Source: Eunapius fragilis
Taxonomy: Eukaryota > Porifera > Demospongiae > Spongillida > Spongillidae
Assembly (NCBI GenBank): GCA_963681505.1
Contig: OY811971.1
Span: 9,915,991-9,979,990, forward strand
DNA: 64,000 nucleotides
Reading direction: 5' to 3'
The notes under the pieces are model-generated. The model did no database searches, was not told where the DNA came from, and saw nothing but the letters and a program-made list of their open reading frames with translations. Each line of letters begins with the position of its first letter. Position 1 is the first letter of the stretch. Below, in pieces: positions 4,631-44,037 of the stretch. The position numbers and the translations under genes are program-made.

Positions 4631-7600
4631 CTCGAATGTTTACTCTCAGAAGAAATATTCCTCTGGATAAATTCTGATGCTGAAATTGGTACCAGCCTGT
4701 CACCATCACCATGCATCAAAAACAATGGAAGGGATATCAGATGCAAATTGTTGCGAGCTTGTCCTACAGCAGTCAGAAACTCATGTATAAATCTTGCTTT
4801 CATGCTCCCATGATAAATCAGTGGATCATCAACATAATTCTGAACCTGTGCAATAAATAATTGAAATCAGCTTCAAAACTGAAAGGCACCACCATATTGT
4901 ATACAACAATTTTGAACGCAACATAGGATCATCCAAGATCCAAATTTATACAGTAGATGTACATGTACATGTACATGTATACATATATGTACAACAACTG
5001 TTTCTGATACACTATACGTGAAGTATATTGACAAACATGTTACACATGCATCTACTGCACATACATACACATACAGTAATGAAATTATTGCAACCCACTA
5101 ACTTCTTCAGGAATTGAGCTGATATAATTGGAATCAAGTTTCCTCAAAGGTGCTTGTGGACAACAAATCATGATTATTTGGGCAGCAAATTGCTAGGGGC
5201 AATAAATTATAAATTTGAACCAGTGCACCAACATGAAAACTATTTAACTCACAACAGCATTTGCCACAAAGCTTCCATATGCAGGGACAGTGTCTAGTGC
5301 AGGAGCGCTCAGTAGGAGAGCAGAAATAAGTGACTGGTGCTGTGCTGCAACCAACGTAGCAATCAGCCCACCCTAAATGAGCAAATGAATACATGACATG
5401 TGTAGATGTACATGCACATGTTAGTGTTCCAGTTTGGACCAAACTGGCAGTACTATCAAACAGTTCAACACTGGCTTTACGTACATGAAAGACACAATTA
5501 TTTCGGAGTAAATTCAAAAAAATTCCCTCTGAATGGAGTTGCTTGTTTTTGTTTGAACTATGTATTAAATCAGGCATTTTGATAGGTAGAGCATAAGAAT
5601 CCTATGGTTCATACGAGCCCTCTAAACGCCAGAAATGGGTCATAACCAGTGAACTTGTTTTCTAGAGGCTTACTTCAGTCAATCAGACAAGCCACCTTAT
5701 TGAAAATAAGACAGATTTTAGAAATGCTTTCTAGTTCCTATTCTTTTCAATTGACTTGTTTAATTAAGAAATGAAGCATATTGCAGGCTATAGCAAAGAA
5801 AACCTACCACACTAGACTACACCCTCTTTCAGAGTCGTATATTGGTAGTATTAGGAAGTTGTCAGGATCGTCATTCAATGCTGCAGCAACCTTGAGAAAC
5901 ACCATATTTACATGTATATGTTCTACAAGCTTCACTTCATATTTAAGGTGAAAAGCCTAACAAATAAGATCATTTTACTCTAGGGAAATAGATTTTGACA
6001 CTTAACATATTTTTGCTGCAATGAATTGTCCAAATTGTTCACTTAATTAATATCCGTGACAGGGAAAACTGTCCATGATCTTAAGCAAACAGAACCAAAT
6101 ATCAGTATTGTACATGTACATGAACTTGTAAATAAACCTATCCATCTGTACATGACACATCAATTTTTGTTACCTGAACAAGTACATGTACATGTATGTG
6201 CATTGCTGTTATTTATTAATCCTGCTTGTGTGCAAATGTGTATGTAAAATAGCATGATGCCCAACTCACCATAGAGTGGCCCAGCATCATACTCGGTACA
6301 CCAGGATGCTTTGCTGTCATCTCTTCAATATGGCCAGCAACATCTTGGACAAAAGTGTCGAATGTCTCCACGTGAACCCTGTCTCCCTCACTATTGCCAT
6401 GTCCAACTGTAAAGCATAACAATACATGTACTTTCACACGGACATGTCGATAATGAGCAAAGGATACATGTACATGTACATGTACGTACCCTCATCCCTG
6501 TACACTGTAGATAAATATACACGGTGCAGGTGTAGTGCATGCACCCACCTCCCATGCAACCAATGTGACATGGGGGTGGCTTAATTTGTGGTGTGAATCA
6601 AGCAGAAAACTGCGCACACTTTTACATGAATGAGAACAAATGCACATAAAAATAAATCATAAAGACGAGGCCAAATGAAAAAATGTTCAGGGGACCTTTG
6701 CCTCTGCACAGGCCAAAGCTATAGACTGGTGTTGTGAGTGGGAATGAAATGACCTGGTTCCTCAAAGGCACATGATTGCTGAGCAGAGTAATGAAAAATT
6801 TACATAGTCTTATCGCTGTAATTGATAACATTGCCTACTACAATTAAATTATACATGTAGCAACAGGATGTCTCTATACACATCCTGAATTTGATGCAAT
6901 TAAATCAATTAACCTATAGCACGTAGATTCACAATAATTTGGCTAGAAAATGGGGGCGAGACTGGGTGGGGGTGAGGAGGGAAGGTCAGTCACAACTGCT
7001 CCTTTAACTTCATGTCAACTGATTAATCATCACAGTTAGCATTGCAGTGCTACAGCTTTACAAAGATATCCATGTGCAACATGTATTGTACCACTTATTA
7101 CAGTAGCAACAACTTGAAAGAAATCTGAAGGGTCATTGGCACATGCCTTGTTAATCCATATAGGATTTGACCCCGATTATGAATGTCATTAAAAAAACGC
7201 GACCCGCTTCTAACAAGACTCCCGACGAGCGGATGGCTTACCTTGTTATCGTCGTCGTACAAGAAGGCAACACCAAGCAGTTTCGTGTTTGTTTGATGTC
7301 ACAAAACCGCGTGGTTGTAGAGAACAAAACAATTTTCGAAACTCGTACCCAGTCCCACGTATTTCTCGTTCTTCTTCTTCTTCTTGTTCTTGACCACGCA
7401 TAACTCGGGATAGGAACACTTTTAAGAAATGAAAATCACACCAATGGCTTCAGAATTCGTTGGCATTCTCGCTTCTGTGGTCAAAACGTCTCGAGGCTAC
7501 ATGACATATATCGGTGGTTGTGTTAGCAAATCACGTATAGCTTACTGCACTGACACGACTCGGATAGGTCCTACGTCGCTCTTTATACGACGTACTAGCA

Positions 7601-10600
7601 GTATACATCATGTAATCAAATGTGTACGGTCTGGGCACTACACGTAGTGGAAATTAACTTTGGCGGTTATGTATTTATAATAACGTGCACGTGCGTACTA
7701 TAATCATTCTTGTTATTCGATCGTTGTAGATTTGACGCTCTTTGTAACTTAGTGAAGTTTTTTTTTTTTTTTCAAAATGCCTTCACGTCAGGAAAAGAAG
7801 AAAGCCAAACGACGAGCATAGTACGGCGCCCATAGTACCTCAAAACTAGAGACAACATATTAGATTCAGCCCGAGCGGAACTACAAAGCAGAGCCTGAAA
7901 AGAAGCGGGCCTCTCAACGTGAAAACTATCGAGCAGAGCCTGAAAAGAAACGGATCTCTCGACGCGCAAGGTATCGAGATGCGATTAGTAGGGGGGGAGA
8001 GGATGCTGTCTGCTTCTGGCCCGATACAAAATGCGTTCGTGGGTTCGATCGCGTTGGGGCACCAATTAATAACCTCTCTTCTATTTCGGCCGCCCCTTAA
8101 AGCCCCCTCAGATCCTGAAAAGGAACGGACCTCTCGACGTGCAAGGTATCGAGCAGATTCTGAAAAAGACAACGATTTTGCCATAGTCCTGAACGTGCAT
8201 CTCGCTCGGCGAAAAGAGTTAAGGTCACTCAAAGGTATGTCGTACCTTTACAACCTCCCTCTCATATCAAGATGGATAACTTAACATGCTATACGGCTCA
8301 TAATCGGGTATGAATAAAAATCAATGAAACAAGTAAATAAAAAACATTCTCTATGAGAAAGTTGGTGGCATATAGGATTTGAAGGCAATGGTGGTGTAAA
8401 AAGGAAGGAAACAAGGGTCTAGTAATAAGGGAAATGGAATAGTCCTATATTTAGCACACGAACAACATACTATATCCTACATATAGAAATGTGCTAGATA
8501 TAGGACTATTCCATTTCCCTTATTACTAGACCCTTGTTTCCTTCCTTTTTACACCACCATTGCCTTCAAATCCTATATGCCACCAACTTTCTCATAGAGA
8601 ATGTTTTTATTTACTTGTAGAATTGCACTCCACAGCATCTCGGTTGTCTCTAAAAGATCATTTACATGTTATTATCTGCCAGTAGAGACAAAACCAGAAA
8701 CTGGTTATTGGAACAGGTGAAAACTGTACTTCTACTTTTTTTAAATAGGGTGATGGTAGTCTGCACACAAAAGTAACAGAAGTGCTTTTAAATCTACATG
8801 CCATATTACATGTACATGTACACATGTATAAAGAATTTGTACATGCCGCCTGATAGATATGCAGTTTTCGTACCCAAAGGGTAAGGAACTTTGTGTGTAA
8901 AGTGTAATGCATACATGTATGCACACGTAAGGTACCAAATCGTAGTTGCAGTAGAGGAATGGTGTACATATTTACATGAAGCACGTGATATTGAAGATAG
9001 GATTTACATGTACCACATATTGCATTCGTTTTGGAAGCATTTCATGTGCTAGGTTTATAAGCGGTACATGAATAACACTTGTAAACACCCACGAATGAAC
9101 ATGCAGTAACATTGGAAGGAACAAATGTGAGGATGCATGTATACCTACCATGATCGTGGCCATATACAAATATCCCTCTCTCAGATAGGTATTTGCCAAG
9201 TTTATTGTATCGTCCCATGTACTCTGCAACTCCATGGCAGATGAAAAGTAGAGCACTGAGAAGGATGGCACAGGCAATACCAGTTTATGTCACTTCAAAG
9301 TAAAGATTAAACGTGCACATGTACAGAAAGCTCTCTCCGATATATTGATTGGACTGCAGATGCATTGAAGCATTGTGTACATGCATTATATGATTGGTGG
9401 AAGGTGCTACGACCAGTATATAGCTGTACACAAAGCACCAGGCATACATGTATAAATACTTGAATAGAAATATGTGTACACGAATGTCACAAAAAATGTC
9501 CCGCTTACACCATCCATCCAGACTTTGTGCAAATGTAATGTCAGCCTCTCAGCGGCTACATGTATATGAAACGGTGTGCATGTGATGTCATGAATAATGC
9601 ATGACCTCCACACAATAACTATGTTGCTGTGTTGATTGTTATAGGCAGTATTGACTAGCCATTCCCAGACCTATACGGTGCAGCGATGTAAGCTTGCTCA
9701 TTAAAAAAGGTCTCGAAATATGACCAGTTGCTCTAACTCGCTGTGTATCAAAATGTTAGTTGCAGTCCTGCACCATTGACACTGCACCAGGATGGGGAGT
9801 GGTGCATAGACAGTGTACAGTACATGTACATGTGCAAGTACAAATGTACACATGCCTATCTCTCCTATATTCATATACTTGTAAGAGGAGCAAATACAAA
9901 CACAGTACATGTATGTACTGTATATGCACCTAAACAGAATACATGTACTGTACATTAGAAAGAGCACTAGGATCATACAGTACGGGTCATAATAAAAGCC
10001 ATGTTCGGTTTTTTGTAGCACTAAGATATACATGTACAGAGCCCTTCTGGTCTGGTCTAATTCAGGCACGTAATTTGACATCATCAGTTTAGACAACATT
10101 AGCATTGCTTGATGGATATGTTGTAGAACATCACTTGGATGGACGTTTCCGCGCCAGTGCTTCAATTATCCAGAACAAAACTGCTAGTAAGTGTGGCCAG
10201 GCACAGACAGTGGTTTTATTCTGTAGACCAGAGGCTATGTAACGTGCAAGTCAGCAACCTCAGTGTTCAATCTACAGACAATGGACAGGACACAATAGAA
10301 ATTGTTGAGGACAAAAGGTATACAGTGTACGCAAGACCCTAGTGCATTGACTTATCTACATGCATTGTCAGGGAGATCACTGTTAAATGCATGCATGCAT
10401 GCCAAAAAACCTTAAGTGACACTCTCACAGACTATGAACATTGACAAAATGCCCTTTGAACTAACAAAATTTCTTTATCTAGACACTGTACATGTAACAA
10501 AAGGTTTGCATCCGTGTTATGAAGCTGTTCTCTGAGGCGCTACATCCTGCTACATGTGACCAAATAAAGTTATTAATTTTTTATGCAGTGAAAAAAAATG

Positions 10601-12472
10601 GGTGGTTATATACATGTACGCATACATGTCAATGAACAGTGTTCCTGTCACCTAAATGTATCCCCCTGAATATGATCCGCATATAAACCTGCTGCAGGTC
10701 AAGAAGGGTTGTTATATGGTAAGACCACAATACGTTATACTACTAAAGGACATTGTATGATGATAATTCATTTCAGATTGCTTAATTAACCATGCATGAT
10801 ATGATAAGCATGATACGGCTTACTCATTTATAATGAGGTGCAATACGAAATGAATTTTATTGATTTGCAGTGATAAACACACCAACTGCAAATGAGACTG
10901 CCTACTTTGCTGGGGTAATAATTGTAAATAGATTTGTACAATCTATGCAATACTTCCTGGCAAGGTGGAAGTGTGCAAGCTACTGATGAAACTATTCAAT
11001 ACATATACCTTGACTACAAATCACGCATATGGTGCACTATCTTTTCTAATTTGATGATGTCACCATATATGTAACTTGCTGTTGATGTGTATAAAAAAGT
11101 AATCTAAGACAGCTGCTCTCCCACACACTCCATCTCCCCCCCCCCCCCCCCCCCCCCTTTATTTATGTGGACAGTAATTCAGATCTGGAGTAATGTTTAG
11201 GAAATGGAATTGATAACTTGCCCCCCCAAGTAACCACTTGAGGAGTAATGAGAGCCCTTAGCCTGTACATGTATATACTAAATGCGTGTATTACATGTAA
11301 TCATTAAGCTATATATGGGACGGTGTCCGGCAAAATCACCCTTCTGGATAGTTTTTCAAAATTTTCCATGAACTCCAAAGAGCTTTTATCAAATGGTCCT
11401 TACGCATCCTAAATTGGACTATCCATCATAAAGTTATTAGGCATTGAATTTATAATTAGCCATACATTTCAATGCGAGCGTTACTTTTCTTTTGCTTGTC
11501 CTGGAAAATTTGATGAAGTATCATAAGGGTTATTTTGCTGGACACTGTTCCATATATATATATATATAGCCCACACTCGCTATCAGATGGGTACATACAT
11601 GTATAAAGGTATGGGCTTCATAACCGACCTACCGCCAAAACGCGAAGGTCGGGCTACGCCCAACTAATAGTAAGTTGGACCTCACCATTGTATTCCGTGG
11701 GGGCACCACCCAAAAAACAATAGGCATTGTCACAGACCGTGGCAAGAAAATTGCTGTTACCCTGTTTGTGCAATCTGATTACCGTATACACATTACTTTT
11801 CATCGTACATAGATAAGCTCTTACCGTACATGTACCCAATACTGTATATACAAAAGCCGTACAAGTGTGTGTTATTCTTAATTGCAAAGATCATGTGTGC
11901 CATTCCAGAGTTCGTAGCCTGAGGTTAATAGTCCACACGTATGGTCTTATGTCTATTCTGAAAACGTTGCGCACAACGTATGTCCAGTTTATGCAGTTTT
12001 CCCCATCAATCATTGTCTGTGCATGATGTAGTCGAGAGAGATGTGACGCTCGTTACCACTTTCCCTATAGCTGTTAGGTTGCGAGCGCCAACCCTCCCCC
12101 AGACCCTCGAGCTCATTAAAAACATATTGGACTCACGACTCTACACATACATTTGCTGTATCTATGGTTGGGTGCTTTCAATGTAGGCCTAGATAATTCG
12201 CACGCCCATGCGGGGCCCTGCAAAATGGTTGTGAGCAATTATGTCGATCCCGATATATACACTTACAGCACAGTATCCTTTGTATAGTAATGTAGGCCTA
12301 CAGTATTTCAAATCAATAAATTAACCTTTTTAAAAAAGGAGCAATTTGTGTTATCTTACTTGGGAGTGGCCTGAGGTTTCCAGGTCGTGACTGCTAGTCG
12401 ATATCCGTTCCACACGCTCGCCCTCTGGTCGGCTACGTCCCTACTAGGTCGCCGTTCTTCACTCTTATCCAT
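4631..12472 (-). CDS. MGLL: Monoglyceride lipase-like serine hydrolase, copy A (last exon not found)
   Basis: An alpha/beta hydrolase of the monoacylglycerol lipase family, known to cleave monoglycerides (including 2-arachidonoylglycerol in animals) to glycerol and fatty acid. Six minus-strand exons are clear: 12360-12472 (start MDKSEERRPS, ending at WKPQATP), 9149-9255, 6270-6406, 5253-5372, 5103-5192 and 4631-4845. Exon 2 holds the ICHG oxyanion-type HG motif, and the nucleophile motif GHSM|GG spans exons 3 and 4. Exon 6 carries the acid motif HGDGDR. Lengths match copy B exactly except exon 6, which is 215 rather than 216 bases near its donor, so the exit phase differs. The exon carrying the catalytic His was not seen down to position 1; it is either beyond the window or lost. 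The copy may therefore be a gene cut by the window edge, or a recent pseudogene. Introns of 60 bases to 3.1 kb hold MITEs. Confidence 0.8.
7160..8625 (+). mobile_element. Palindrome-bearing element with PEKKR-repeat ORF remnant, copy 1
   Basis: This 1.4-kb unit shares its promoter-like left part (GACCCCGATTATGAATGTC near 7168), an ATG reading MPSRQEKKKAKRRA at 7777, and a terminal palindrome with a second copy near 43764-49475. The frame after MPSRQ is interrupted by early stops, and further on it reads repeated modules of the type EPEKKR..R..YRA (about 7895-7975 and 8110-8165). Such modules are known from proteins of sponge and cnidarian mobile elements. Between the modules, 7985-8100 carries a piece of the G-rich hAT-MITE repeat (CTGGCCCGATAC). 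The whole lies in intron 2 of lipase copy A. Superfamily unknown. Confidence 0.55.
8330..8617. repeat. Near-perfect 288-bp palindrome
   Basis: Arms of about 127 bases (8330-8458 and 8492-8617) are almost exact reverse complements around a loop of about 33 bases. The left arm reads ACATTCTCTATGAGAAAGTT and the right arm ends AACTTTCTCATAGAGAATGT. Near identity of the arms points to recent formation or gene conversion. The same palindrome, more diverged and split by a retrotransposon, flanks 43891-48881. A shorter piece is near 3360-3440. Confidence 0.9.
10085..10345 (+). other. Plus-strand conserved segment in intron 1 of lipase copy A
   Basis: An open frame here ends with DTIEIVEDKRY just before or across a donor-like AAAAG|GTATAC. 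A related frame, ENETIEIVNNRY, with AACAG|GTACAT lies at 33968-34140 in the matching intron of copy B. Shared sequence continues after it (GCAAGACCCT then TTGACTTATC). This could be an exon of a nested gene on the opposite strand, or simply intron sequence carried along in the duplication. No family recognised. Confidence 0.35.
11137..11157. repeat. Poly-C tract
   Basis: About 20 consecutive C residues followed by TTTATTTATG. The length is likely variable and may be an assembly weak point. Confidence 0.9.
11312..11555. mobile_element. MITE with GGGACGGTGTCCGGCAAAAT ends, copy 1
   Basis: The left end TATGGGACGGTGTCCGGCAAA is mirrored by TTTTGCTGGACACTGTTCCATA at the right end. The interior contains GGATAGTTTTTCAAAATTTT, TCCTAAATTGGACTATCC and CATTTCAATGCGAGCG. 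The same order, inverted, occurs at 13165-13409, which shows a mobile family. It is non-coding and flanked by TATATA, consistent with insertion at TA-rich sites. Confidence 0.8.
11566..11690. repeat. Dispersed repeat, AGCCCACACTYGCTATC family, copy 1
   Basis: AGCCCACACTCGCTATCAGATGG... followed by CGAAGGTCGGGCTACGCCCAAC is repeated at 34445-34560 with about 80% similarity by eye. The two copies do not sit in collinear positions within the lipase duplication, so this is an independent interspersed repeat. Confidence 0.65.
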
Positions 12473-13160
12473 CGTCGATATTTACTAACAGATGTTGTTG
12501 TACACCCCACGTGCGCGTCAATGAATTAAATTTAGTACTTGGTTTGTTTTCTCTGGCGGGGGAGGGGGGGGGGGGGGGGGGGGGGGGGCATGCGCAGCTT
12601 GCGCCAGTGTGATCGTATTTTCAGAACCTGTTATATTTTTCTTACATGGTAGTACTATTTATATATACTTTTCTTTCACTTACGTATAAAATATATATAT
12701 TCGTGAGACGGAATTAGCCCCTGTCTGTTTTGCCGAAAGTGTTCTGCTTCCAAAAATAACTCTCTTCAGCTACCAGATAGTTACTACCACACATAGTAAG
12801 GGATAGTTTTTCAAGCATTATCAGAGCTCTTTCAACAGAGGCAGGGGCTACTTCCATCTCGCGGATAAAGTACGTATTAAAGTTGACATCGTCTCTGTTC
12901 TTTACTATATACTACTAGTGTTGTTGAAGTTGACAAGTTATTTGTGTATTAATTCAGGTATGGCGTTGGAAGACATGCATGCAGCTAATGAGATATTTGC
13001 TTTTAGACGTAGAAACACATCACAAACCCCCAATAAGGGTATGCGAGTAATCCGGCAGGACGTAGGTTGTACTTCTCACAACCACATCGAACACTGTCTC
13101 AACAACATCCGGAAATTTCCGAGTCCGGATCATGACGAACATGACGAATGCTTACGTCCT
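12473..13160. other. Upstream region of lipase copy A; no gene assigned
   Basis: It holds a poly-G run at about 12562-12588. A plus-strand frame from 12961 (GMALEDMHAANEIFAFRRR) begins after an acceptor-like TTAATTCAG and runs into the neighbouring MITE. No family recognised and no companion exon found, so it is not annotated as a gene. Confidence 0.4.
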
Positions 13161-13164
13161 GAAC

Positions 13165-14506: not shown

Positions 14507-17500
14507 ATTGGTAATTGGTTAAGCTTTCCAACGTGACAGACCTTCACCCCAGTGACAGTGCAAGAGGTCTTGTGACAGGGTAGGCGTGGCTGCATCAGTT
14601 GAGTATGTGGCATCCATTTTGTCTATTGTGCATGGGTATGAAATTGGTGATTGGTTAAGCTTTCCAATGTGACAGACCTTCACCCCAGTGACAATGCAAG
14701 AGGTCATGTGACTGGGATAGGTGTGGCTACATCAGTTGAGCATGTGGCATCCATTTTGTCTATTGTGCATGGGTATGAAATTGGTGATTGGTTAAGCTTT
14801 CCAATGTGACAGACCTTCACCCCAGTGACAATGCAAGAGGTCATGTGACTGGGATAGGTGTGGCTACATCAGTTGAGCATGTGGCATCCATTTTGTCTAT
14901 TGTGCATGGGTATGAAATTGGTGATTGGTTAAGCTTTCCAATGTGACAGACCTTCACCCCAGTGACAGTGCAAGAGGTCATGTGACTGGGATAGGTGTGG
15001 CTACATCAGTTGAACATGTGGCATCCATTTTGTCTATTGTACGTGGGTATGACATTACTCGTCTTATTCTTACGGACTGATTGGTGATTGGTTAAGCTTT
15101 CCAATGTGATAGACCTTCACCTCAGTGACAGTGCAAGAGGTCATGTGACTGGGGTAGGCGTGGCTACATCAGGTGAGCATGTGGTTTCCATTTTGTGTAC
15201 TGTATGTGGGTATGACATTACTTGTCTTCCTTTCACGGACGGATTGCTGGTTGGTTAAGCTTTCCAATGCAGCAGACCTTCTCCCCGGTGAAAGTGCAAG
15301 AGGTCTTGTGACTGGAGTAGGCGTGGCTACATCAGGTGAGTATGTGGCTTCCATTTTGTCTATTGTATGTGGGTATGACATTACTTGTCTTCCTTTTACG
15401 GATGGATTGCTGGTTGGTTAAGCTTTCCAATGCAACATACCTTCACCCCGGTGACAGTGCAAGAGGTCATGTGACTGGGGTAGGCGTGGCTACATCAGGT
15501 GAGTATGTGGCTTCCATTTTGTCTATTGTACGTGGGTATGACATTACTCGTCTTATTCTTACGGACTGATTGGTGATTGGTTAAGCTTTCCAATGTGATA
15601 GACCTTCACCTCAGTGACAGTGCAAGAGGTCATGTGACTGGGGTAGGCGTGGCTACATCAGGTGAGTATGTGGCTTCCATTTTGTGTATTGTATGTGGGT
15701 ATGACATTACTTGTCTTCCTTTCACGGACGGATTGCTGGTTGGTTAAGCTTTCCAATGCAGCAGACCTTCTCCCCGGTGACAGTGCAAGAGGTCATGTGA
15801 CTGGGGTAGGCGTGGCTACATCAGTTGAACATGTGACATCCATTTTGTCTATTGTACGTGGGTATGACATTACTTGTCTTATTCTTACGGGCTGATTGGT
15901 GATTGGTTAAGCTTTCCAATGTGATAGACCTTCATCTCAGTGACAGTGCAAAAGGTCATATGACTGGGGTAGGCGTGGCTACATCAGGTGAGCATGTGGT
16001 TTCCATTTTGTGTACTGTATGTGGGTATGACATTACTTGTCTTCCTTTCACGGACGGATTGCTGGTTGGTTAAGCTTTCCAATGCAGCAGACCTTCTCCC
16101 CGGTGAAAGTGCAAGAGGTCTTGTGACTGGAGTAGGCGTGGCTACATCAGGTGAGTATGTGGCTTCCATTTTGTCTATTGTATGTGGGTATGACATTACT
16201 TGTCTTCCTTTTACGGATGGATTGCTGGTTGGTTAAGCTTTCCAATGCAACATACCTTCACCCCGGTGACAGTGCAAGAGGTCATGTGACTGGGGTAGGC
16301 GTGGCTACATCAGTTGAACATGTGGCATCCATTTTGTCTATTGTACGTGGGTATGACATTACTCGTCTTATTCTTACGGACTGATTGGTGATTGGTTAAG
16401 CTTTCCAATGTGATAGACCTTCACCTCAGTGACAGTGCAAGAGGTCGTGTGACTGGGGTAGGCGTGGCTACATCAGGTGAGCATGTGGTTTCCATTTTGT
16501 GTACTGTATGTGGGTATGACATTACTTGTCTTCCTTTCACGGACGGATTGCTGGTTGGTTAAGCTTTCCAATGCAGCAGACCTTCTCCCCGGTGAAAGTG
16601 CAAGAGGTCTTGTGACTGGAGTAGGCGTGGCTACATCAGGTGAGTATGTGGCTTCCATTTTGTCTATTGTACGTGGGTATGACATTACTCGTCTTATTCT
16701 TACGGACTGATTGGTGATTGGTTAAGCTTTCCAATGTGATAGACCTTCACCTCAGTGACAGTGCAAGAGGTCATGTGACTGGGGTAGGCGTGGCTACATC
16801 AGGTGAGTATGTGGCTTCCATTTTGTGTATTGTATGTGGGTATGACATTACTTGTCTTCCTTTCACGGACGGATTGCTGGTTGGTTAAGCTTTCCAATGT
16901 GACAGACCTTCTCCCCAGTGACAGTGCAAGAGGTCTTGTGACTGGAGTAGGCGTGGCTACATCAGGTGAGTATGTGTCTTCCATTTTGTGTATTGTATGT
17001 GGGTATGACATTACTTGTCTTCCTTTCACGGACGGATTGCTGGTTGGTTAAGCTTTCCAATGCAGCAGACCTTCTCTCCAGTGACAGTGCAAGAGGTCTT
17101 GCGACTGGGGTAGGCGTGGCTACATCAGTTGAACATGTGGCATCCATTTTGTCTATTGTACGTGGGTATGACATTACTCGTCTTATTCTTACGGGCTGAT
17201 TGGTGATTGGTTAAGCTTTCCAATGTGATAGACCTTCATCTCAGTAACAGTGCAAGAGGTCATGTGACTGGGGTAGGCGTGGCTACATCAGGTGAGTATG
17301 TGGCTTCCATTTAGTGTATTGTATGTGGGTATGACATTACTTGTCTTCCTCTTATCGACAGATTGCTGGTTGGTTAAGCTTTCCAATGTGACAGACCTTC
17401 TCGCCGGTGACAGTGCAAGAGGTCATGTGACAGGGGTAGGCGTGGCTACATCAGGTGAGCATATGGCATCTATTTTGTCTATTTTACGTGGGAATGACAT

Positions 17501-17575
17501 AACTTGGTCGTACTCTTTCACACGGATTGCTTGTTTGTTAAGCTTTCCAACGTGACAGATCTTTACCCAGTGACT
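14507..17575. repeat. Satellite array: 20 units, mainly 163 bp, with 815-bp higher-order repeat
   Basis: The anchor AAGCTTTCCAA recurs at 14521, 14657, 14794, 14931, 15094, 15257, 15420, 15583, 15746, 15909, 16072, 16235, 16398, 16561, 16724, 16887, 17050, 17213, 17376 and 17540. Spacing is 136-137 for the first three steps, then 163 (164 at the last step). Two unit types differ in the block before the anchor (ACGGACTGATTGGTGATTGG or ACGGATTGCTGGTTGG). Their order repeats every five units: 15094-15908, 15909-16723 and 16724-17539. Each unit also contains GGGGTAGGCGTGGCTACATC. Units are open in several frames on both strands, but since 163 is not a multiple of three no continuous protein results. 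Treated as non-coding. Confidence 0.95.
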
Positions 17576-17905
17576 GTGGTAGGATGCGAACTGCTTTATT
17601 GAGCTCTGTAATCTCATTGTTCATTTTGACGCATATTTCAAATTTCATGTCCTACAGTGGACTAAATGCTGAACATAAAGTTGTATTAGTGACGTTTTTA
17701 TCAATGCTAACTTTTCATATCTGTTTGTGTTTTGACTTGTTATTGTTCAATATCAATTATATAATTTGCTTCAGTTTTTGTTTCATATTAATGAAGTGTT
17801 GTTCACTTAATGGAATAATCTGGTAAAAGTACCTTAACAACCATGCAGACTGCAATGAATTATACCTTTAACCAAAAACTTCATTTCATTTCAACATAAC
17901 TGAAA

Positions 17906-22898: not shown

Positions 22899-25800
22899 CT
22901 ATTGCCCACAATGAGATAAGATCCAGTCTGCAATGAGCTGAGCTGCTCTGTCTTGATCCTTGTCATGGAAAACATTGTGACCATTGTTAGAAAATACCTG
23001 GCATGAGTATAATGCAAAGGTAGATAAATATGCATTGCTGTTAAGACAATTATCACAAGCTATCACAAAATAAGTATGATTTAGTTCAATCGTATACATG
23101 TATTATTATAATAATTATTATAGTTCTAATTAAAAAAAAAATACTTAGCATTAAAAAAAAAAAAAGTATTACACTAACTAATCATAAATAACATATGCAT
23201 GCGGAAAGCTCTAGAGGTGGAACTTAGTATTAGAAATTACAGGATGGTTTGAAAAATATCTCGACCATTTTAAGTGCTGCTATTGAGACAAATACATTTT
23301 AAGTAGCGGGGATCCCAAACTATAAAATGTTGTTGGTCCATTCAAATCATCAGATATATGAATTCAGAGTGACCCGACTTTGCTAGACGGCGCTCTCACA
23401 CTCACTGATCAGTCAAGGATGTAATATCGGCTCACACTTTTGACCACCCTATCAAACTACACTCATTCCCGTGCTTAACCATCTTTTTATAGATTAGCAC
23501 CACTTACCGTTGCATTGAAACCTTTCAAACACTATAACCGCTTAGAGAGCTGCCATTATTTTCACACTAAATGGTTTATTTAGTTATTATAAAAAAATAA
23601 CTGCATTTATATTCACATTAATCATTTCTATACGCGATATGCCGTTATACTATAATGTTATCCATTTGTGCTTTTACTCATGAGTCATTTGACGTGAGGC
23701 TTTCATAAATAAGATAATTAGGCATGCAAGAGTGGGAAGAAACCTAAGCCAGTGCATGAGAGTGTATGGGAAAAGATCTTATCAGCTAGGGCAAGTTCCA
23801 TGTGTGTCCATCAAAAGTGTGGTTGAAGTGATCCTTTTCCGTGAAGACAAGGGCAAGTGGTACTTCCATCTGACCTACACCGCAGCTAGACACTCTAAAA
23901 CCCAGATGAGAGTTATGTTCGAGGTACAAGGCAAAGGTTTTTGGCAAGTCCATTATTCTTGCAGCAGGGGTCTACCCATTCTGCGAGCCCTGCCTCACAG
24001 CTACATATCCACTACAATCTGCAGTTGCCCCTCCCACTGCTACACAACAATACAATATTCCAACCACATTGATGACATCACCGCTATGTGGGGCAGTGAA
24101 GTATGACTCACCTATTGAGCCGAGCGGAGGATCAAGACTTGGTGCTGTGAGAAAGTCTCTGTCAGGGACACAGATTCGACAGCCTGAGGCCATTCACCCG
24201 GCTAGGAAAGCTGGCAATTATGGTAAGGGCTCATAGCAGAGGGCTTTATGTACAAAGCAGGAGAACTCAGCATAAACAGGAGAAGAGGGCAGCCCAAAGA
24301 GTCTCTAACTGGGAGGCATATAAGGTAATGTCAGAGAATCAGTTTGACAGGCTTCAAAAGGCCCTCACTGATCCAGAGCCATTTTGGACCTGTTGGTAGC
24401 GGTGCGACAGGGAGTGTAGACAATGCCCGAACCAACTTCAGGGGGATGCGGGTTAGGCATTTCTTTCCAGAGATCAGGGACAAGGCTATGTATGGACTGG
24501 ATTAATGACAATTGTGATAAGGAATGTGAGCCAGGAATAACACTTCCTTTAAATACTACATCAAAAGTCAAGTCGTTCCAAACTTACCGGAGTACATTAG
24601 TGGCATTGCCCACAAAGCTGTAGAGTGGGAACAGCAAGGCGCTGGTTGCACTCATTGGGAATCAAGCACCAGGGAAAGACAGGATTTGCTAATGGCCATA
24701 AAAGGCCCAATGTGAAGGCCAAACAGCACCACTTCGTAAAAATTATGCATGAGCTGGGAAAAGAACCCTTTCAGTACCGATGTTAGGGCAGACCACAATG
24801 TGTGGAATACTAGAGAATGTAATTGAAGAAAGGATGATGGAAGTTAGAGAAGAGAGGGGGCAGAGGTTCAAGTGGATGACATACATTGTACCACAAGGCA
24901 GTGCAAAGGAAGTTCTAAGGGAGGCTATACCGCATGGTGGTGTACAGAGTCAGTTACATGTACCAGTGAGCATGGAGAGGAAATCTTCTACCAAGGTGAA
25001 TCCGTTTTTAAGGCACATGATGGGGCCAGGAAAGATGGATGCCTCCAGATTTCATTGGACAACTGCTGAAGAAAGGAGAGGGGCCAGGTATAATGATAAT
25101 GGCTAAACAAGACATGGCAGCCATTAATGCTAAGAGATGCATTGAGGGAAGGCCCCATGCAAGCACATTACTCCTCATAATGTTTGCTACTATGGCTTTC
25201 ATGCCTTTGAGTATGGTAAAGCTCATGAGGGCTACTGGGATGGAGACAAAATGCTTGAGCTGGTGAATTTATACATGCTTTTAACTTCCTGCACCCTGAC
25301 GATCAAGCTCTCTTCATATTTGACTGGTCAAGCGGTCACTCGATATACCCATTGAATGCCAATGACTTTGATCATGAAGTATGGGGGAACAAAAAGGGGT
25401 GCAAAAATGCGGGCTGCTATACTTGAAGAGGGTTACCCACTATCCAATATGATGGTGAAGATGGGACATGGTCTGAGCCAAGGACATTCCAGAAAGGGGA
25501 TGTTCGGCATATGATCTTCCATAGTCCTCATTCTATTCACCAAGTCTGGATCCTAAGAATTGTGTCAATAAGCCAAAGGCATTTGCCAAGTACATGTACA
25601 ATGTACTATGGGAAAGGGGCCTTTTGAAACCAGACATGACATTAGATGGCAAATGGGTTGACGGACCAGGAAACAAGCCAGTTATGCACCTCTCTACATC
25701 AGCCTGTTATAAGTTGTCCCAGTGCCCAGACATTCTAAATCAAAAGTCTGCGTTCCCATGATAATATTCACGTATGATCAGGTGGGGTTGCAGTTTTGTT

Positions 25801-28800
25801 CACCAATTTTGGCTAGGTCCCTTTTCGCTGTCATATAATTATTTTCCTATTGTCTTCTTTTATAACACAGCAAACCCAGGGATGCCAGAACTAGTCCAAG
25901 TCTAACCATACTAAGGGGCTACATTTTTGATTAATCCATCATGGAGCTACTGAACTATTTACATATATATGCACAATAAAGAAATGAAAGTGTATTATTA
26001 ATTGTAATGTATACAGTAAGTCCAAAAACATACACGTGGGCCAGGTAAATATCTAAACCTACTAAATTTAATCTGCATTCCAATGACACATATATCCCCC
26101 CCCTCCCCACATGCATGTACAGCCCTTTGCAAACTTTGCTAATCATGCACTTTCTCATCATCCCCAATTTTCAATAGCATCAAAAATGGAGATAGCTATG
26201 GCCACTGTTTTGCTAAGCCATTTGAATAGGTTTCACATGTACTGTACATTGTATTAAAAACAAACGTTGACAAATAATTTCCCTAAAGCGAGTCATAAAA
26301 TGCACATGTAAAAAAGGTTTTTTGTGATACTTATTTTTTCTGTAACAAGCATCTACATGTACATGTTCTGTAGGTCACATGAATTCCATAACAAGCACAT
26401 GTTGTTCTACAGTGTATGTAAGGTGATGTCGACAAAGAGAAGAATGGGTGAAATGAAACCCTCAATCAAAGCAGAAATTTATAAGCAGTGCAATATGTGC
26501 ATTATATCTACATGTAATGTAAATATACATGAAGTGAACACAATACAAGTTCAGTGCATGTATACATGTACTATATATATCAACCAAGCAACGATATACA
26601 TGTACATTACAGTGATTGCATAATACATCATTACATACATGTACATGTACATGTATATTGCATATTATTACAAACCTCATATGTTTTGTTATCAGAGGAA
26701 ATATTCTTCTGGATAAATTCTGATGCTGAAATCGGTATCAGCCTGTCACCATCACCATGCATCAAAAACAATGGAAGGGATATCAGATGCAAATTGTCGC
26801 GAGCCTGCCCTATAGCAGTCAGAAACTCGTATATAAATCTTGCTTTCATGCTCCCATGATAAATCAGTGGATCATCAGCATAAATCTGAGCCTGTACATT
26901 AATTGAAATACGGCTTGTAAAATTGAAGACATCATGTATTCTACACAACAATTCTGTAACTAGAACGCAGGATAATTTAAATTTATTAATGTACTGACCA
27001 ACCAAGAATGCAACATTCATCAACTGTTTCTGACACACAATACTGCCAACAAGTACTGTACTGTATATTGCAACCCACTTACTTCTTCAGGAATTGAGCT
27101 GATATGATTGGGATCAACGTTAATCAAAGGTGCTTGTGGACAACAAATCATGATTATTTGGGCTGCAAATTGCTACAGCCATAATGAACCAGTGCACCAA
27201 CATTAACACTATATACATGTAACTTACAATTGCATGTGCAACAAAGCTTCCATATGCAGGGACAGTGTCTAGTGCAGGAGCGCTCAGTAGGAGAGCAGAA
27301 ATAAGTGACTGGTGCTGTGCTGCAACCAACGTAGCAATCAGCCCACCCTAAATGAGCAACAAATATTAATGTACATGTACATGTGTACGTACATGCACAG
27401 CTGAAAGTGTACATACAAGTATAGTTTGGACGGAACTGGCAGTAATATCAAACAGTTTTTAACTATTTGAACGCCAAGTGCATATACGCATACATGCTCA
27501 CTAAATGACAATAATCTGCCTCACCATTCATGCATGTGGTGTGGATCAAAATCACCTTGATTACCATTGTAGATGATACAAGTGCAATTCTGACCATTGT
27601 AAGTAAACTTATAGTCATACAAATATTTGAACATATTTGGGCCCAGTGTAAGAACATTTTGTGTGTCCAAATTGTAACTTGCTGGTACCCTTTGTTGCTA
27701 CAACTCATTAGCAAAAGGTGGAGGAGTGACATACTACACTGATCTGAGATATACATTCTTGTTCTTAGAGTACATAAAGTGGTGCATTAGTGAAGTGAAG
27801 TGAGGTCATCCGAATAATGGGGTTCTTCAGGCAGTGCAAGAAGACTTCGTAGATGTACTTATATGGTTACAAGTGCAGCAAGCATACGCATGCATCATCC
27901 AGTTGTGACTGATCAACACATTCCTGCAAGCAAGATCTAAATCATGCATGAATGGTGTAACGTTTGTGTGTGCATGCATGCATAAACGAACTTGGCGTTC
28001 AAAGAGTTAAACGTATTCAGTGCTGAACTGGGGTTAATAATAGCTATTAAGCCTTTGTATGTGTAGGGCAAATTAAGTGGAAACTGTCACAGGTTTGCTA
28101 TGCATACATGTACATGTACATGTACATGTAGCTATATACTGCACACACAACACCTTCATATACATTGTAATTCCCCAAATAGGCACATTGACAATGAATT
28201 AGGTGGAATACACATAGTTGAAATAACAAGCTCTCAAAGTTGCAAACAAAATAAACACATGCAACATGCGCATACTACATATCAGCACACATGTAGAATG
28301 CTTCCATGTACATGTATATATATCATGTACGAACTTGCAAGCAAACCCGATGCATCAATACTTTATGCATTGCTGTTATAAATTCTGCTTGTGTACATGT
28401 ACTTGACAAGTATAAAATAGCATGATGCACAACTCACCATAGAGTGGCCCAGCATCATACTCGGTACACCAGGATGCTTTGCTGTCATCTCTTCAATATG
28501 GCCAACAACATCTTGGACAAACGTGTCGAATGTCTCCACGTGAACCCTGTCTCCCTCACTATTGCCATGTCCAACTGTAAAGCATATCAAAAAGAAATAA
28601 AAATTAACAGTTTAACTCAATTTTCAACACTTCTTGCTACATTGAAAACTGCATGTAGGTATGACTGTAGGTTTATTAGATAGCTTACATGCTACAACTG
28701 TGCAATTAAAATGCTCATTTCCAGCCAAATCATACCATTAGTGCAATGCAAATCGCTTCCTGTCAGTCCAAGATGTGAATTTGTAATATTTCTTGTGCCA

Positions 28801-31800
28801 CACTATGTCCAAAACCGGCAGCTAGGCCTGCTACTGTATATAAAATTACAAGTACTTGCTTGTTTTTGTTCCAAACATCTTATTCTGGCTTCGTCTAAAC
28901 TGGCAGTGAACTAAATGCTATTGTCATGTGATATGGAGATAGGGAGAGGCATGTGGCAGGGAGGACCATGAGAAGCACTTGATTTAATTAAATATGGAAA
29001 TGCTTTAACTTGTCCTACTAAAGTTTAGCAACAACTTATTCTTAAGTTAAGGTGAATTAGAAATGAAATTGTGCATATAACATAGTTACAATAGGATCTG
29101 TTAGATATGTATAATTGAAAGATATCTGAAAATGACCCATTATAGAATTAGCCGCATACACCCCTACAAATGCAAATGTCAATCAATGTTGTCGCTGGGT
29201 GGGGGGAAGGGGGGGGGGGGGTCGTAAACATGGCGCTGTCCAGGGATGTTTTAGAAAGGGTGGTGGCATAAATGCCTGTCCCAGGGGGGTTACAGATGAA
29301 ACATGCAATGGTCCAGGGTAGGTGTAACCAAATAGAAGCTTCCCAGGGAGTACTTTAAAGCCTGTCCCAGAGGGTGTAGATAAAACAGACGTGAGTGTAT
29401 ATACATGTACTATCCCAGGGGGTTTACTTTGCCATCTGCAGTGGTGTGTATATTTAAATAATGGAATAGCCCATTGTTCAGCTGAAATCCAACAACTGAA
29501 CACCTTGGTTGTCCAACACATGTAATTCGCTGCTAGTATAGACAAACAGGTGTTGGAACTGGTGAAAACTGTAATCGTAATTTTTTTAACAGAATGATGG
29601 TAGTTTGAACTCGAAGGTATTACACATTCATACTCAATAATTACAGGTATCCTTAATGTACACACCAAAGTTGAAACGCTTTGGATGTTCCACCCAAAAC
29701 AAAAGTGGCTTTTCGCAACCCAAGGGGCAGATATGTGCAATGTTAATTTCAAATCATTAAGGAGTAAATGTACATGTACATGTAGCACATAAAGATAGCA
29801 CTTGCCATTAGGAAGATATACAGATTGCATTCTTTTTGGAAGCATTTTATTTCATAAAATACATCCATAAGCCCGGTTTATAAATGGGACATTAAGGTAC
29901 ATGAATACATCTGAGTACACCCACAAATGAACAGTAACATTGGAAGGAACAAATGTGAGGATGCATGTATACCTACCATGATCATGGCCATATACAAATA
30001 CCCCTCTCTCAGATAGGTATTTGCCAAGTTTATTGTATCGTCCCATGTACTCTGCAACTCCATGGCAGATGAAAAGTAGAGCACTGAGAAGGATGGCACA
30101 GGCAATACCAGTTTATGTCACATCTAAGTAATGATTAAACACGTACAAGCATACATGTACATTGGTTGAAAGCTTACAAGGTAGTGGATACCAGTATATT
30201 GCTGTACACAAAGCAGCAGGCATACTACCATAATGATAACTATAGTTGTAGTGCGGAGATCATGTGTTGTTCATACAATGACATGTACACCATTTCATAT
30301 ACATGTACACATAGCCACTGTGAGGCTGACATTACATACATGTACATGTAGTGGTATTTTTGCACAAAGTCTGGATGGCTGGTCTAAAGTAGGTGGTACA
30401 TTTATTGTACACATATTTCTATTCAAGCATGTTGATTGTACTGCTCTAGCCATTCCCCAGACCCATACGGTGCAGCACTTTGCATATAATGCATAACCAT
30501 GCTCATAACAAAAGTGTTCAAAACGTGACTAGCTGCTCTAACTGGTTACATGTGTATCCTTCACATCAATTCCAGGGCAAGATGAAACCCAAACTTTATG
30601 TCTATACAAGAACATGTACATGTCTGTCTACATGTACATAATATCTACACATGTACATGTATATGATCAAGTGAAGCAGGAATTTGTGTATTCCTTGGAT
30701 TGCATTGCACAATCTAGGAATCCTTACTATTGGCACCAAATCCAAGGATTGCACATGGTATTCCAGGATTGCGCAAATTTTTGCATGTGCACAATCCTAG
30801 AATATGGCACCTGTGCAATCCTTGGATTTGGTGCCAAAGTAAGGATTCCAAGACAAACAAAAAGTGGTGTTTAAGGAGTTTTGCAAAGATCCTTTTATTG
30901 ATGGTGACAACAAAGGAAGCAAAACAATCTCCAGAGCAAAAGGAGAGAACATTACCAGGCTGCTCAAAAAAAGAAGGGGACCTGAACGACTACACTCCTA
31001 AGTTCAGGCATTGCATGAGTGAAGAGCAAAGGGTTCAGCTTGTATCCCATTCAGCTTTGGAACTTAAGTGAATACCTGCCAAAACTAGTATGAGTGGGAA
31101 GCTTTGTATTTTTAGTACATGTAGCTTGGCAATGCTAGATACAATGTATTAATGAAAGTTATACTTAGAAGAATTTGAATAACACCAGTACTGTCACTGG
31201 CTGGAGGCGTATTGCATTTGTGGAGATTTCTATGATGTCATTTATATAGGTACATATGTGTGGTGCACGGTTTGGTGGTACTACATGTATACCCAAATGT
31301 ATACCCAGGATTTAAATCCTGATATTCTGATCAGTTCAACACTGCAGTGTCACGGTATTGTTGTGTGTGCATGTGATGAATGCTCGGCACGTGACCAAAG
31401 ACAGTCAACACCTAATCCAACATGGAGGCAGTGGTGCGTGTGTGACGTGCTGTGTGAGGTTGAAGACTAGTACGTCGGCACAACCTCGTGGTATGGGACC
31501 GTGGAAGAAGGAATGAATGCACTGAGAGAGGGCGAATGCCAGGTGAGGTTGTTACTAAAGCGCCGGAGCCAGAGCCAAAAGGGTCAGAGCCTGAGTACAC
31601 AGGCTAGTGCCAGAGCCTGCACCAATGGTCATAGACAAGGGCGAGAGGCGAGACTTAGTGGAATCTAGAGAGACAAGATGGCAGAGACAGCCAGTGTCCA
31701 GAGAGACCAGATGGCAGAAACCCTAAGAAAAATTATGGCATGTCTTGGCATGTCTTGGCGTGACTTGCCAGTTTTCAGCATGAAATGGCAAGTCATGTAA

Positions 31801-34800
31801 TTCACTTGCAATGTATTATGCAAGATTTAGCAAGTCTTGGCAAGTCGTGTAATGTCTTGCTATGACTTGCCATGATTCTGTCATGACATTTCTTACCATG
31901 ATACGCATTAACATATTATTCCATGACACGCCAAGTTTAGGCAAGTCATAGTGACATGGAAGTACTAAAATAAAGCTGCAACCAAGAATTTCACCAGAAC
32001 ATCTATTTCTTTGAACTTGGTTTATGTTATGGATAAGTGCCAATATCCACCATGCACACATGAGGTGATCGAATAGTTCAAAGTAATAACTGATTGAAAT
32101 GACAGCACAACAGTTAGGGTTAGGGATAGAAGCATCCCGAAAGTATGAACGGTAACAGCAATACTTTCTAACATGAGAGCACTGTCTCAAGCTCCATATT
32201 AGCACGTGAATATCAATATGCGCCCACAATGAAAATGTAATGATTCGACACATGCCCACAAGTAGATGGCTGCGCTCAGAACGTACAGGCGAAATCATGT
32301 TCCATCGAAGAAAGCCCTGGACGACGGAACTTTTTCTGAAGAGCCGCTTGATCAAAACAGTAAGTTGTTTTAGGCCCTGTTATTAGCAGCTAGAAATAAT
32401 GAGATAACTGTCCTAATGCGCAACTTTTTAGTTCATAACTTCAGGGCTGATAAAGTCAATTGATGTCTCAAATGTATGCCATGTCATGGCAAGCCATTGT
32501 AAATCATGGTATGCAATGCTAAGTCATGGCATAATAAGCACAATTAAACATGGTATGGCAAGTTATGCCATTACTCAGATCCAAATCATGGCATAACATA
32601 CCAGAATTTTTCTTAGGGAACAGCCAGTGTACAGAGAGATAAGATGGCAGAGACAGCTTGTGGCCGGTGAGACAAGAGGAAAGTCATAGAGGAGCAAGAA
32701 GGATCAAAGCATGACACCTTGCAGAACAAGGACCTTCTGAAAGTGTACTTGGTATTAAGGGAAGATGAGATGCAGTGAAATGGCATTGTTGTGTGTGGAA
32801 ATGATGTTTGATCAGCATGTGACCAATGAAATGCACTCAACACCTAATCCTACAAACACAATTTTCCACGGGGGGTCATGATGACCTCTCCTTATAAGTA
32901 ATATTTCGGCCAGCCTCCATGACAATCATAGTGTTAAGTGTGTTCAAATACAACATTGTGGAGAATACATAATCAATAATCACCTTCCCTCCCAATCGGA
33001 TGATCAGCCTTGATCCCAAGTCACATGCTCAGACTCCCTCCAAATCAAATGATCAGCCTCCCTCTGAATCAGATGATCACCCTTGATCCAAATCAGATGA
33101 TCAGACTCCCTCCAAATCAAATGATCAGCCTCCCTCTGAATCAGATGATCACCCTTGATCCAAATCAGATGATCAGCTTCCCTCCAAATCAGATGATCAC
33201 CCTTGATCCAAATCAGATGATCACCTTCCCTCCAAATCAAATGATCAGCCTCCCTCTGAATCAGATACTTGGCATCTTTCCATGTCACATGCTCAGATCA
33301 GATTATCAGTTTCAAATCACAGCACGTAAGTTTAACAAGCATGGTACCGGCAAAATGTTGACAGGATGCAAGTAATACACTAAAGGAAGACATAAGAAGG
33401 TATATACAATGTACCTTTTACCACTGCTGTGAACTTGCGATATATGGGTGTTTCCATGTGCAAGTACTACAGCTTGCATATGTGTGTGTTTTTATGTAGA
33501 TCCTAATATTCATTGTGGGAGATTCTGTCAGTGTTCGAATCCCAAAGATTGATTGGTCATCTACATGTACAGACTGCCCTTTGTTCAGATTTAGATCCCA
33601 GCTCTTGATTTGGATCACTTTGACAAAGATTATTATCATAATGGAGGATTATGTGACAAGCACATAAATGGAGCCAGCAGGCTTCTATCACAACAATTTC
33701 CAGCTGTTCCAATTTAATATCCTTAGTCAGACTGATGACGTCGTACCCATCATGGACAATTGTAAGTTGTACTCTATTATTTTAATGTGACGTATAGCTC
33801 AATTGAAACCTATCCTCAACTTATAACTTATACTTACATGTACATGCCATTGAATGCTGAATACTCGAAAGATTTACCTGTTTAAAATGACAAGTTGTAT
33901 GCGAACTTTTTCTCACTCACAGCCGTACAAAGATTCATATATTGTGAATGAAAACCATCAGCTCTGAATGACCCATCTTGTAACAAGTTCAGTTTCCATT
34001 CACGTCATCATCACTCGAGTCATCCAAGGTGAAAAAGGGCTTACAAGCTGTCAGGGGAGTTTATTAAATTGCACTGTGCCAGGATCTTACGAGTACAAAG
34101 AAAACGAGACAATAGAAATTGTGAACAACAGGTACATGTATTGTATTGTAAGATGGCATGCAATCTCATAAATTATGCAAGACCCTCTCAGGTTAAATCT
34201 TATTGACTTATCAATTATCTAGTCCCTTGAGACATATACGAATTGCATGTGAAAATTTGAAGTATCATTGTATATGCCGTTCATATAATACACATGTACA
34301 TATCAAATAGACAAACCAAACAAACTAAAGCATTTTCCAAATCCAATTAACAATGTGAGCTCACCATGCATTATGCACTAAGTGCTACGATATTCACATA
34401 CACCAACCTAAATCATATTTAAAAATCACCACCAGAGCTAATAATAGCCCACACTTGCTATCCGATGGATATACAAATCTTGGAATATAGGCTTGATACC
34501 TGACCTTCTGCCAAAATGCAAAGGTCGGACTACGCCCAACTGCCATCTAACTTAAAAGTTAGCACAGATTGCTTCTACATAGCTGATATTGAAGCACTCT
34601 TTGCTAAACAATAAAGTTATGGTGGTGGGAACACATTTCCTAACTTCAACTTAATAGATGTATTAATGTCTATTTGCGCCCGTGTGCACAGGTGTGCATA
34701 CTGTACGTACAGTGTGTACAGGTGTGCACACTTTATTTACACCTTCATATCTTTAACAGTTGCTGGATTCCTGTAGCAGATTTTACATCATTTTAAAGAT

Positions 34801-37800: not shown

Positions 37801-38416
37801 TGCCTCAATAAAATCAATCAGCCCATCAGCAAAAAGCTTGAAACATCTGCATGTAATTCAGTTGGTGATGAGCGAGCCAAGACTAAAGTAACTTAACCTG
37901 CAAAAGCTACACCATAAACTTAAAGCCACTTGTGGGTCTATGGCAGTATGCGGAACAAAAGTTTGCGAGCTTCGAGACGTTTTGAGGCAATAAATTAAAG
38001 TTTGGCACAGTATATGCAATCGCCTATCGGGCATGCACCCTAAGATCTCGAAATGAGGCAAATGGGAAACCTTTAGCTTCGATGGGAAAGAGGGGGTGCA
38101 TTTAGGGATATTGACATATAGGCCAACTGGCCAAGATGGGGTCCTAACAGGGGCACAAGGATATAATTCTCACCCTTAATTCTTCCCCCGATGCCACAGT
38201 AAATGTTCTTAAGTTTATACGTATATGGTGTAAAGCTTATTCTGAAAGCGCTGCGCAAATTCGTTTGTCTATACATAGCTGTACATGTAGATGTGTGACT
38301 TACTTGGGAGTGGCCTGAGGTTTCCAGGTCGTGACTGCTAGTCGATATCCATTCCACACGCTCACCCTCTCAGTCTGATCGGGTACGTCCCGACTAGGTC
38401 GCCGTTTATCACCCAT
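22899..38416 (-). CDS. MGLL: Monoglyceride lipase-like serine hydrolase, copy B (complete)
   Basis: Hydrolyses monoglycerides if it acts like its family. Seven minus-strand exons join in phase: 38304-38416 (start MGDKRRPSRD), 29977-30083, 28438-28574, 27228-27347, 27083-27172, 26676-26891 and 22899-22997 (stop TAG at 22899). The 882 coding bases give 293 residues, close to the roughly 303 of vertebrate MGLL. Seen directly: NGYRLAVTTWKPQATP at the N terminus, CHGVAEYMGRY (oxyanion region), GHSMGG with Ser118, MHGDGDR with Asp238, and NNGHNVFH with His268. These positions nearly equal human Ser122, Asp239 and His269. Residues 160-189 (IIMICCPQAPL) form the lid-like membrane-contact region. All introns have GT-AG ends. 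Intron 1 is 8.2 kb and intron 6 is 3.7 kb, and both are filled with mobile-element remains. Probably cytosolic or membrane-associated. Confidence 0.9.
23732..25760 (+). pseudogene. Decayed DDE-type DNA transposase
   Basis: Scattered plus-strand pieces match the layout of a DDE transposase common in sponge and fungal genomes. They are a piece around GESVFKAHDGARKDG near 24995, KKGEGPGIMIM near 25070, YGKAHEGYWDGDKMLELV near 25220, ALFIFDWSSGHS near 25310, and VLWERGLLKPDMTLDGKW near 25600. The pieces lie in different frames, with many shifts and stops, so no functional protein can be made. It sits in intron 6 of lipase copy B in the opposite orientation. Ends were not defined. Assignment rests on motif order only. 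Confidence 0.55.
29200..29222. repeat. G-rich tract
   Basis: A run of G residues broken by AA in intron 2 of lipase copy B. A reading frame through it on the minus strand gives Pro-rich sequence of no likely meaning. Confidence 0.8.
30700..30856. mobile_element. Hairpin element built on GGATTGCAC / GTGCAATCC
   Basis: GGAATCCTTACTATTGGCACCAAATCCAAGGATTGCAC is mirrored, with one base changed, by GTGCAATCCTTGGATTTGGTGCCAAAGTAAGGATTCC. Between the two arms, further GGATTGCGCA/TGTGCACAATCC pairs occur. The whole segment of roughly 140 bases can fold into one long stem. Non-coding, in intron 1 of lipase copy B. Confidence 0.8.
31640..32690. repeat. Short tandem repeat (about 42 bp) interrupted by the element at 31721
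   Basis: GAGAGACAAGATGGCAGAGACAGCCAGTGTCC, GAGAGACCAGATGGCAGAAA and, on the far side, CAGCCAGTGTACAGAGAGATAAGATGGCAGAGACAGC are copies of one unit. Their arrangement shows the array existed before the insertion. Confidence 0.7.
31721..32618. mobile_element. Non-coding element with CCCTAAGAAAAATT ends and CATGGCAAG-type internal repeats
   Basis: The left end CCCTAAGAAAAATTATGGCA and the right end AGAATTTTTCTTAGGG are inverted repeats. Just inside each end are many copies of a palindromic word family (TGGCAAGTCATG, ACTTGCCATG, TTGGCAAGTC). The middle part (31970-32400) has a different composition. The element splits a GATGGCAGA(G)ACAGCCAGTGT tandem repeat: GATGGCAGAAA precedes it and AACAGCCAGTGT follows, so AA is duplicated or was the target. 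Superfamily unknown. Confidence 0.75.
33008..33270. repeat. 24-bp minisatellite (ATGATCA-CCCTC family)
   Basis: About eleven tandem 24-base units with variants such as AAATCAGATGATCACCCTTG and AAATCAAATGATCAGCCTC. Because 24 is a multiple of three, both strands read as perfect octapeptide repeats (LPPNQMIS/LDPNQMIT on plus, READHLIW/IKGDHLIW on minus). No splice or start context supports translation, so it is taken as non-coding. Confidence 0.9.
33700..34175 (+). other. Plus-strand conserved segment in intron 1 of lipase copy B
   Basis: Matches the segment at 10085-10345, with shared ETIEIVNNR before a donor-like AACAG|GTACAT. It extends further left than the copy A segment, with donor-like AATTG|TAAGTT at 33762 and acceptor-like CTCACTCACAG at 33922. 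If this is a nested gene, only fragments are visible. Confidence 0.3.
34445..34560. repeat. Dispersed repeat, AGCCCACACTYGCTATC family, copy 2
   Basis: AGCCCACACTTGCTATCCGATGG followed by CAAAGGTCGGACTACGCCCAAC; a counterpart of 11566-11690. Confidence 0.65.
35090..35330. repeat. Tandem repeat, units about 65 bp (GGACGTGGCAGGGCAGTCAG)
   Basis: Blocks reading ACTGCAAACAGGTTCACAAGCTGTAGAACGTGGCAGGGC, with variations, recur about four times. No coding signal. The flanking 34560-35090 and 35330-36580 hold nothing recognised apart from AT-rich intron-like sequence. A segment near 36120-36240 matches 10410-10550 and so marks the lipase duplication. Confidence 0.7.
36660..37616 (-). mobile_element. 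LINE-like retrotransposon fragment (C-terminal part of reverse transcriptase ORF)
   Basis: On the minus strand the order is GGLGLRSLSLHSS (near 37580, the thumb region of this RT family), then ELRVAIKWWLGL with a degraded zinc-binding region, then a degraded nuclease-like domain seen as WDLGRPVALGITVVSLLNPS (near 36980). This order matches the C-terminal half of LINE-type proteins frequent in sponge genomes, which read RPADVLV..W..GKPAALDVTVTSPLNP. Several frame breaks and stops separate the parts. It lies in intron 1 of lipase copy B. Confidence 0.65.
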
Positions 38417-44003: not shown

Positions 44004-44037
44004 CTGGTGTCAGAAGTGGGATCGGACCGAATGCTAC

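Follow-up and report, generated by a model that had tools for sequence, protein, structure and literature searches.

The 64,000-nucleotide stretch of DNA analysed here (the window; C1:9915991-9979990, where C1 is the contig that carries it) lies within a family of monoglyceride-lipase-like genes that very probably expanded in tandem within one lineage and partly decayed; one copy in the window (copy B) is apparently complete. Searching the genome (219 Mb in 24 contigs) exon by exon with the protein of copy B as the query gave 56 matches at E-values up to 0.1. Among them we recognise seven lipase copies, all on the minus strand, at C1:9.55-9.955 Mb, and a diverged eighth copy (c8) at C1:15.34 Mb. 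The two paralogs reported in the initial annotation of this DNA were thus too few. Overall, this is ordinary gene duplication in an animal genome; matches to PF00110 (wnt), a family with none in 14 control genomes, indicate an animal. It is a clean example of how genes for a lipid enzyme multiply in tandem and decay, with little significance when taken alone.

Copy B is predicted to be a complete gene

Copy B occupies positions 38416-22899 of the window on the minus strand, and its seven exons make up a complete frame. Exon 1 (38304-38416, 113 nt) starts with the ATG and is followed by exon 2 (29977-30083, 107 nt), exon 3 (28438-28574, 137 nt, with the GHSM of the nucleophile elbow, including Ser118, at its end), exon 4 (27228-27347, 120 nt), exon 5 (27083-27172, 90 nt), exon 6 (26676-26891, 216 nt, encoding Asp238), and exon 7 (22899-22997, 99 nt including the stop, encoding His268). 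When joined from the sequence, these exons give 882 nt in one frame, i.e., 293 amino acids and a stop. All six introns read from the sequence have GT-AG borders, and the longest spans 8.2 kb. An 80-nt version of exon 5 was rejected because it gives stops; the acceptor 10 nt upstream produces the 90-nt exon and an open frame. From these features, we infer that copy B is spliced in this way in vivo. The description of copy B as a gene for a complete 293-residue enzyme is therefore upheld, as are the junctions previously placed at 38304/30083 and 26676/22997, which coincide with exon borders carrying GT-AG in the sequence. It had also been remarked that no exon exceeds 216 nt and that introns reach 8 kb, which agrees with the sizes given above. 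Short exons escape single-frame gene finding in intron-rich eukaryotic genes generally.

The spliced product matches the PF12146 profile (Hydrolase_4) over positions 2-239 of 239, with 214.7 bits for a cut-off of 27. This score and the presence of exons of the same size in the other copies exclude chance as the origin of these exons. Among the sequences of solved structures, 67 match the protein at an E-value of 0.001 with phmmer, and the top match is 3jw8 (E = 1.8e-47). We looked at the best 60 of these 67, and the 12 best among them all carry the name of a monoglyceride or monoacylglycerol lipase, which, together with the match to the whole PF12146 domain, supports the type of enzyme initially proposed. 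No NCBIfam model matched copy B at its cut-off (23 matched below it); these models are prokaryotic.

The positions of the Ser-Asp-His triad are filled in copy B by S118, D238, and H268, which we take to be the catalytic residues. Ser118 lies in the elbow GHSMGG and Asp238 in HGDGDR, and both align with the human enzyme, as had been claimed for the whole triad. For the histidine, the claim holds only after a shift of one residue: phmmer pairs the His of the best solved chains with Asn269 of copy B. We placed it at His268 because copies B and c2 match without gaps in this region and phmmer aligns the YH of c2 (in YHEILHD) to that of the solved chains. The c2 protein in this comparison was two residues short, and the c2 frame ends two residues past an out-of-frame TAA. 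Judging from its sequence, copy B encodes a putative serine hydrolase expected to cleave monoacylglycerols into a fatty acid and glycerol via Ser-Asp-His.

The structures 3jw8 and 3hju, presumably of human MGLL, resemble copy B in having the whole alpha/beta hydrolase domain, the GHSMGG elbow, and the Asp and His positions. Both proteins also have an HG motif near the N-terminus, which reads HGAGEHSGRY in MGLL and HGVAEYMGRY in copy B; the core of this motif is HGVAE in copy B, HGAGE in the human chain, and HGVGE in c2. The region of the histidine differs more, with GHNVFHD in copy B and YHVLHK in the human chain. The alignment with the monoglyceride lipase of Mycobacterium tuberculosis (6eic) covers residues 23-288 of copy B and scores below the best solved match (129 versus 165 bits). 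This bacterial gene lacks introns.

A tandem cluster of seven copies

Beyond copies A and B, the cluster includes five copies on the minus strand. The copy c1 (C1:9.5586-9.5543 Mb) has exons 2-7 at exactly the lengths of copy B, and its exon 1 is uncertain (the candidate at C1:9567000 has an E-value of 0.0154). All seven exons are present and open in c2 (C1:9.5795-9.5704 Mb) and c5 (C1:9.8025-9.7876 Mb). Two others are incomplete: c3 (C1:9.6021-9.5863 Mb) lacks exons 2-3, its alignment skipping positions 9943913 to 9947119 of the copy B region, and c4 (C1:9.7836-9.7770 Mb) lacks exons 6-7. In summary, three of the seven copies have all exons open (c2, c5, and B), three are broken, and one (c1) lacks a confirmed exon 1. 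The diverged c8 lies on the plus strand (C1:15.341-15.347 Mb) and has exons 2, 3, 5, and 6 at the lengths of copy B, with an exon 7 of 96 nt. Its exon 4 is 107 nt long by pattern (a donor 13 nt further on would give 120), and its start codon is unsettled. Five other places matching PF12146 (in contigs C13, C15, C14, C3, and C11) were set aside as other alpha/beta-hydrolase frames, by reading only.

The copies of the cluster are neighbours on the same strand, share their exon structure, and have similar introns, as is typical of tandem paralogs. A pair made of an A-type and a B-type copy occurs three times on C1 (c2/c3, c4/c5, and A/B). The shared intron positions of copies A and B were initially presented as noteworthy. 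They do hold, but are no surprise, because a recent tandem duplication suffices to explain them: only 15 of 453 nt differ between the two copies in exons 2-5. We propose that duplication, possibly by unequal crossing-over, copied an A-type and a B-type gene as one unit, together with their introns and flanks, and that this would have produced the three pairs, beside which c1 would be an older copy. Decay may then have proceeded by a 1-nt deletion and the loss of exon 7 in copy A, by a deletion removing exons 2-3 in c3, and by the loss of exons 6-7 in c4.

The flanks are repeated as well. A segment at positions 866-2501 of the query 56000-58500 of the window is mostly repeated, at 94-97% identity, at C1 9.615, 9.727, 9.827, and 10.052 Mb (40 of 90 candidate places were scored). 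With the window itself, the segment occurs at five places on the same strand (C1:9.615, 9.727, 9.827, 9.973, and 10.052 Mb), and lipase exons were found beside only three of them.

Could the apparent repetition consist largely of unmerged haplotypes, the pairs A/B and c4/c5, and the copy on a second contig described below, being alleles placed side by side or mis-scaffolded? A 200-N gap (C1:9904733-9904932) separates c4/c5 from A/B, so part of the repetition could have this origin. In the pieces of c4/c5 longer than 700 nt, about 1.5-5.8% of positions are substituted relative to the window and gaps are many, which is consistent with the same idea. The copy on the second contig is flanked by runs of 4,128 N and 200 N; on the left it begins in a tandem array, and on the right it ends just beyond a repeat. 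However, three pairs, and five places of the flank segment on the same strand of C1, exceed what two haplotypes would give. The pairs also differ in structure: exon 6 is present in A and absent from c4, and c3 lacks exons 2-3. We thus regard haplotypes as an unlikely explanation for most of the repetition, and favour tandem expansion.

A copy of the B region on a second contig

The region of copy B recurs on another contig (C2). The block extends from position 15480 of the window to its end at 64000 and continues to C1:9987467; on C2, it spans 12822102 to 12872646 (50.5 kb). Its left point was set by collinearity because the left edge lies inside a tandem array. This array has units of 163 and 137 nt and occupies positions 14507-17578 of the window; the C2 copy begins within it, after the N run. 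For the repeat beside the right edge on C2, 40 of 228 candidate places were scored. We found no substitutions between the two blocks in the approximately 29 of 50.5 kb compared. They differ by indels of 11 nt, 1 nt, 1 nt, approximately 448 nt (from match offsets), and 4,995 nt.

The largest difference is due to a Ty3-type element (approximately 43892-48881 of the window). Its direct terminal repeats are identical (113 nt or one less), its frame of 1581 residues includes RT, RNase H, and integrase domains, and 5 nt of target sequence are duplicated at its ends. The site is empty in C2, where the 5-nt target is present once, which suggests a young, perhaps heterozygous insertion. The absence of this element and the other indels show that the C2 copy is not simply the same contig placed twice. 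It is most likely a misplaced second haplotype. A true recent segmental duplication between chromosomes, predating the Ty3-type insertion on C1, would also account for the lack of substitutions where the blocks were compared and for the clean empty site with its single target, but the N runs at both edges, which lie in or beside repeats, are typical of a misplaced contig and make such a duplication quite improbable. The probable misplaced haplotype would raise copy counts in the assembly.

Copy A is most likely a pseudogene

Copy A lies at positions 12472-4631 of the window on the minus strand, where we found six exons: exon 1 (12360-12472, 113 nt, with the ATG), exon 2 (9149-9255, 107 nt), exon 3 (6270-6406, 137 nt), exon 4 (5253-5372, 120 nt), exon 5 (5103-5192, 90 nt), and exon 6 (4631-4845, 215 nt). 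The last has a 1-nt deletion near its end relative to the 216 nt of copies B, c2, c3, and c5, and the missing base costs copy A its phase. The initial annotation had listed six exons for copy A and seven for copy B, with correct lengths, except that exon 6 was treated as equal in the two copies; the identity of phases that it described breaks down at this exon. Near-equal exon lengths recovered by eye may thus mask a frameshift.

We searched for exon 7 of copy A, which should carry the catalytic histidine, using exon 7 of c2 and B as DNA and protein (blastn and tblastn, E-values up to 1). No such exon turned up in the 40,620 nt that follow exon 6, of which 200 are N, and the gap at C1:9904733-9904932 is therefore a hole in this search. 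The search returned five blastn and two tblastn rows. The best one (C1:9904208-9904149, E = 0.010) has 20 residues at 40% identity and excludes the part of the histidine. It is too weak to be taken as exon 7 and could conceivably be a remnant of it. The sequence of c2 below C1:9571160, which holds its exon 7, has no counterpart in the region downstream of copy A. A complete Ser-Asp-His triad was accordingly not found for copy A within the searched stretch, including its 200 N.

The frameshift in exon 6 and the failure to find exon 7 do not support copy A as a second complete gene, lead us to reject a reading of the window as two intact paralogs, and suggest that copy A is most likely a pseudogene. 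It might still produce a functional protein, truncated or with an alternative end, since its frame is open through exons 1-5 and most of exon 6, with the residues of the family retained through the Asp. Given that the 40,620 nt downstream, including 200 N, yielded no exon with the histidine, and that the c2 sequence containing exon 7 is absent there, we consider this decidedly unlikely and retain the pseudogene. A multicopy element of 1.76 kb with 43-nt terminal inverted repeats (1556-3320) adjoins the end of the main similarity between A and c2 (approximately 3319).

History of the copies and selective constraint

We counted informative sites in exons 1-5 among five copies (A, c2, c4, B, and c5), leaving out c3 and gapped columns. 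Eleven of the 20 sites separate B and c5 from A, c2, and c4, and all are in exons 1, 4, and 5. The sites of exon 3 conflict: c4 goes with c5 at two of them, B with c2 at one, and A with c4 at one. This weakly suggests gene conversion of exon 3 between the A and B types.

Long-term constraint on the family is seen in distant pairs: B and c1 have a dN of 0.205 and a dS of 1.30 over 555 nt (exons 2, 3, 6, and 7). Between B and c8, dN is 0.243 and dS is 2.63, which is saturated (exons 4 and 5 left out). Young pairs show no clear constraint. There are 16 nt and 11 residue differences between B and c5 over 648 nt (dN 0.022, dS 0.034), and A and c2 show a dN of 0.014 and a dS of 0.035 (648 nt). Since constraint is not visible among the young copies, any single one of them could be drifting.

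Exon 7 is identical over its 99 nt in B, c5, and c3. Around the catalytic histidine, B-type copies have GHNVFHD, versus YHEILHD in c2, HHEILHD in c1, and NHEVLHD in c8. It seems very improbable that these sequences reflect a paralog whose active-site loop has changed and which gene conversion is carrying across the array, giving a substrate-shifted enzyme.

Comparison with other sponges and further features of the window

In the collection of papers searched, we found nothing on monoacylglycerol lipase with Amphimedon, nor on monoglyceride lipase with Porifera. In Ephydatia muelleri, many clusters of duplicates share identical intron-exon structure (PMC7385117, section 6) and segmental duplication is widespread (PMC7385117). 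The examples of tandem clusters given there are other gene families, and the word 'lipase' is absent from the main text of that article (PMC7385117).

The window also contains a 952-amino-acid open frame matching Transposase_21 (tnp2) on the minus strand between copies A and B (17906-20764), and a tandem repeat of 24/72 nt (32971-33266) within an open frame in which the peptide NQMI is repeated. Two frames are of the EGF type: one at 40412-40714, identified by reading, and one at 52264-52998, with five EGF stretches, whose surroundings are repeated beside c3 and c5.
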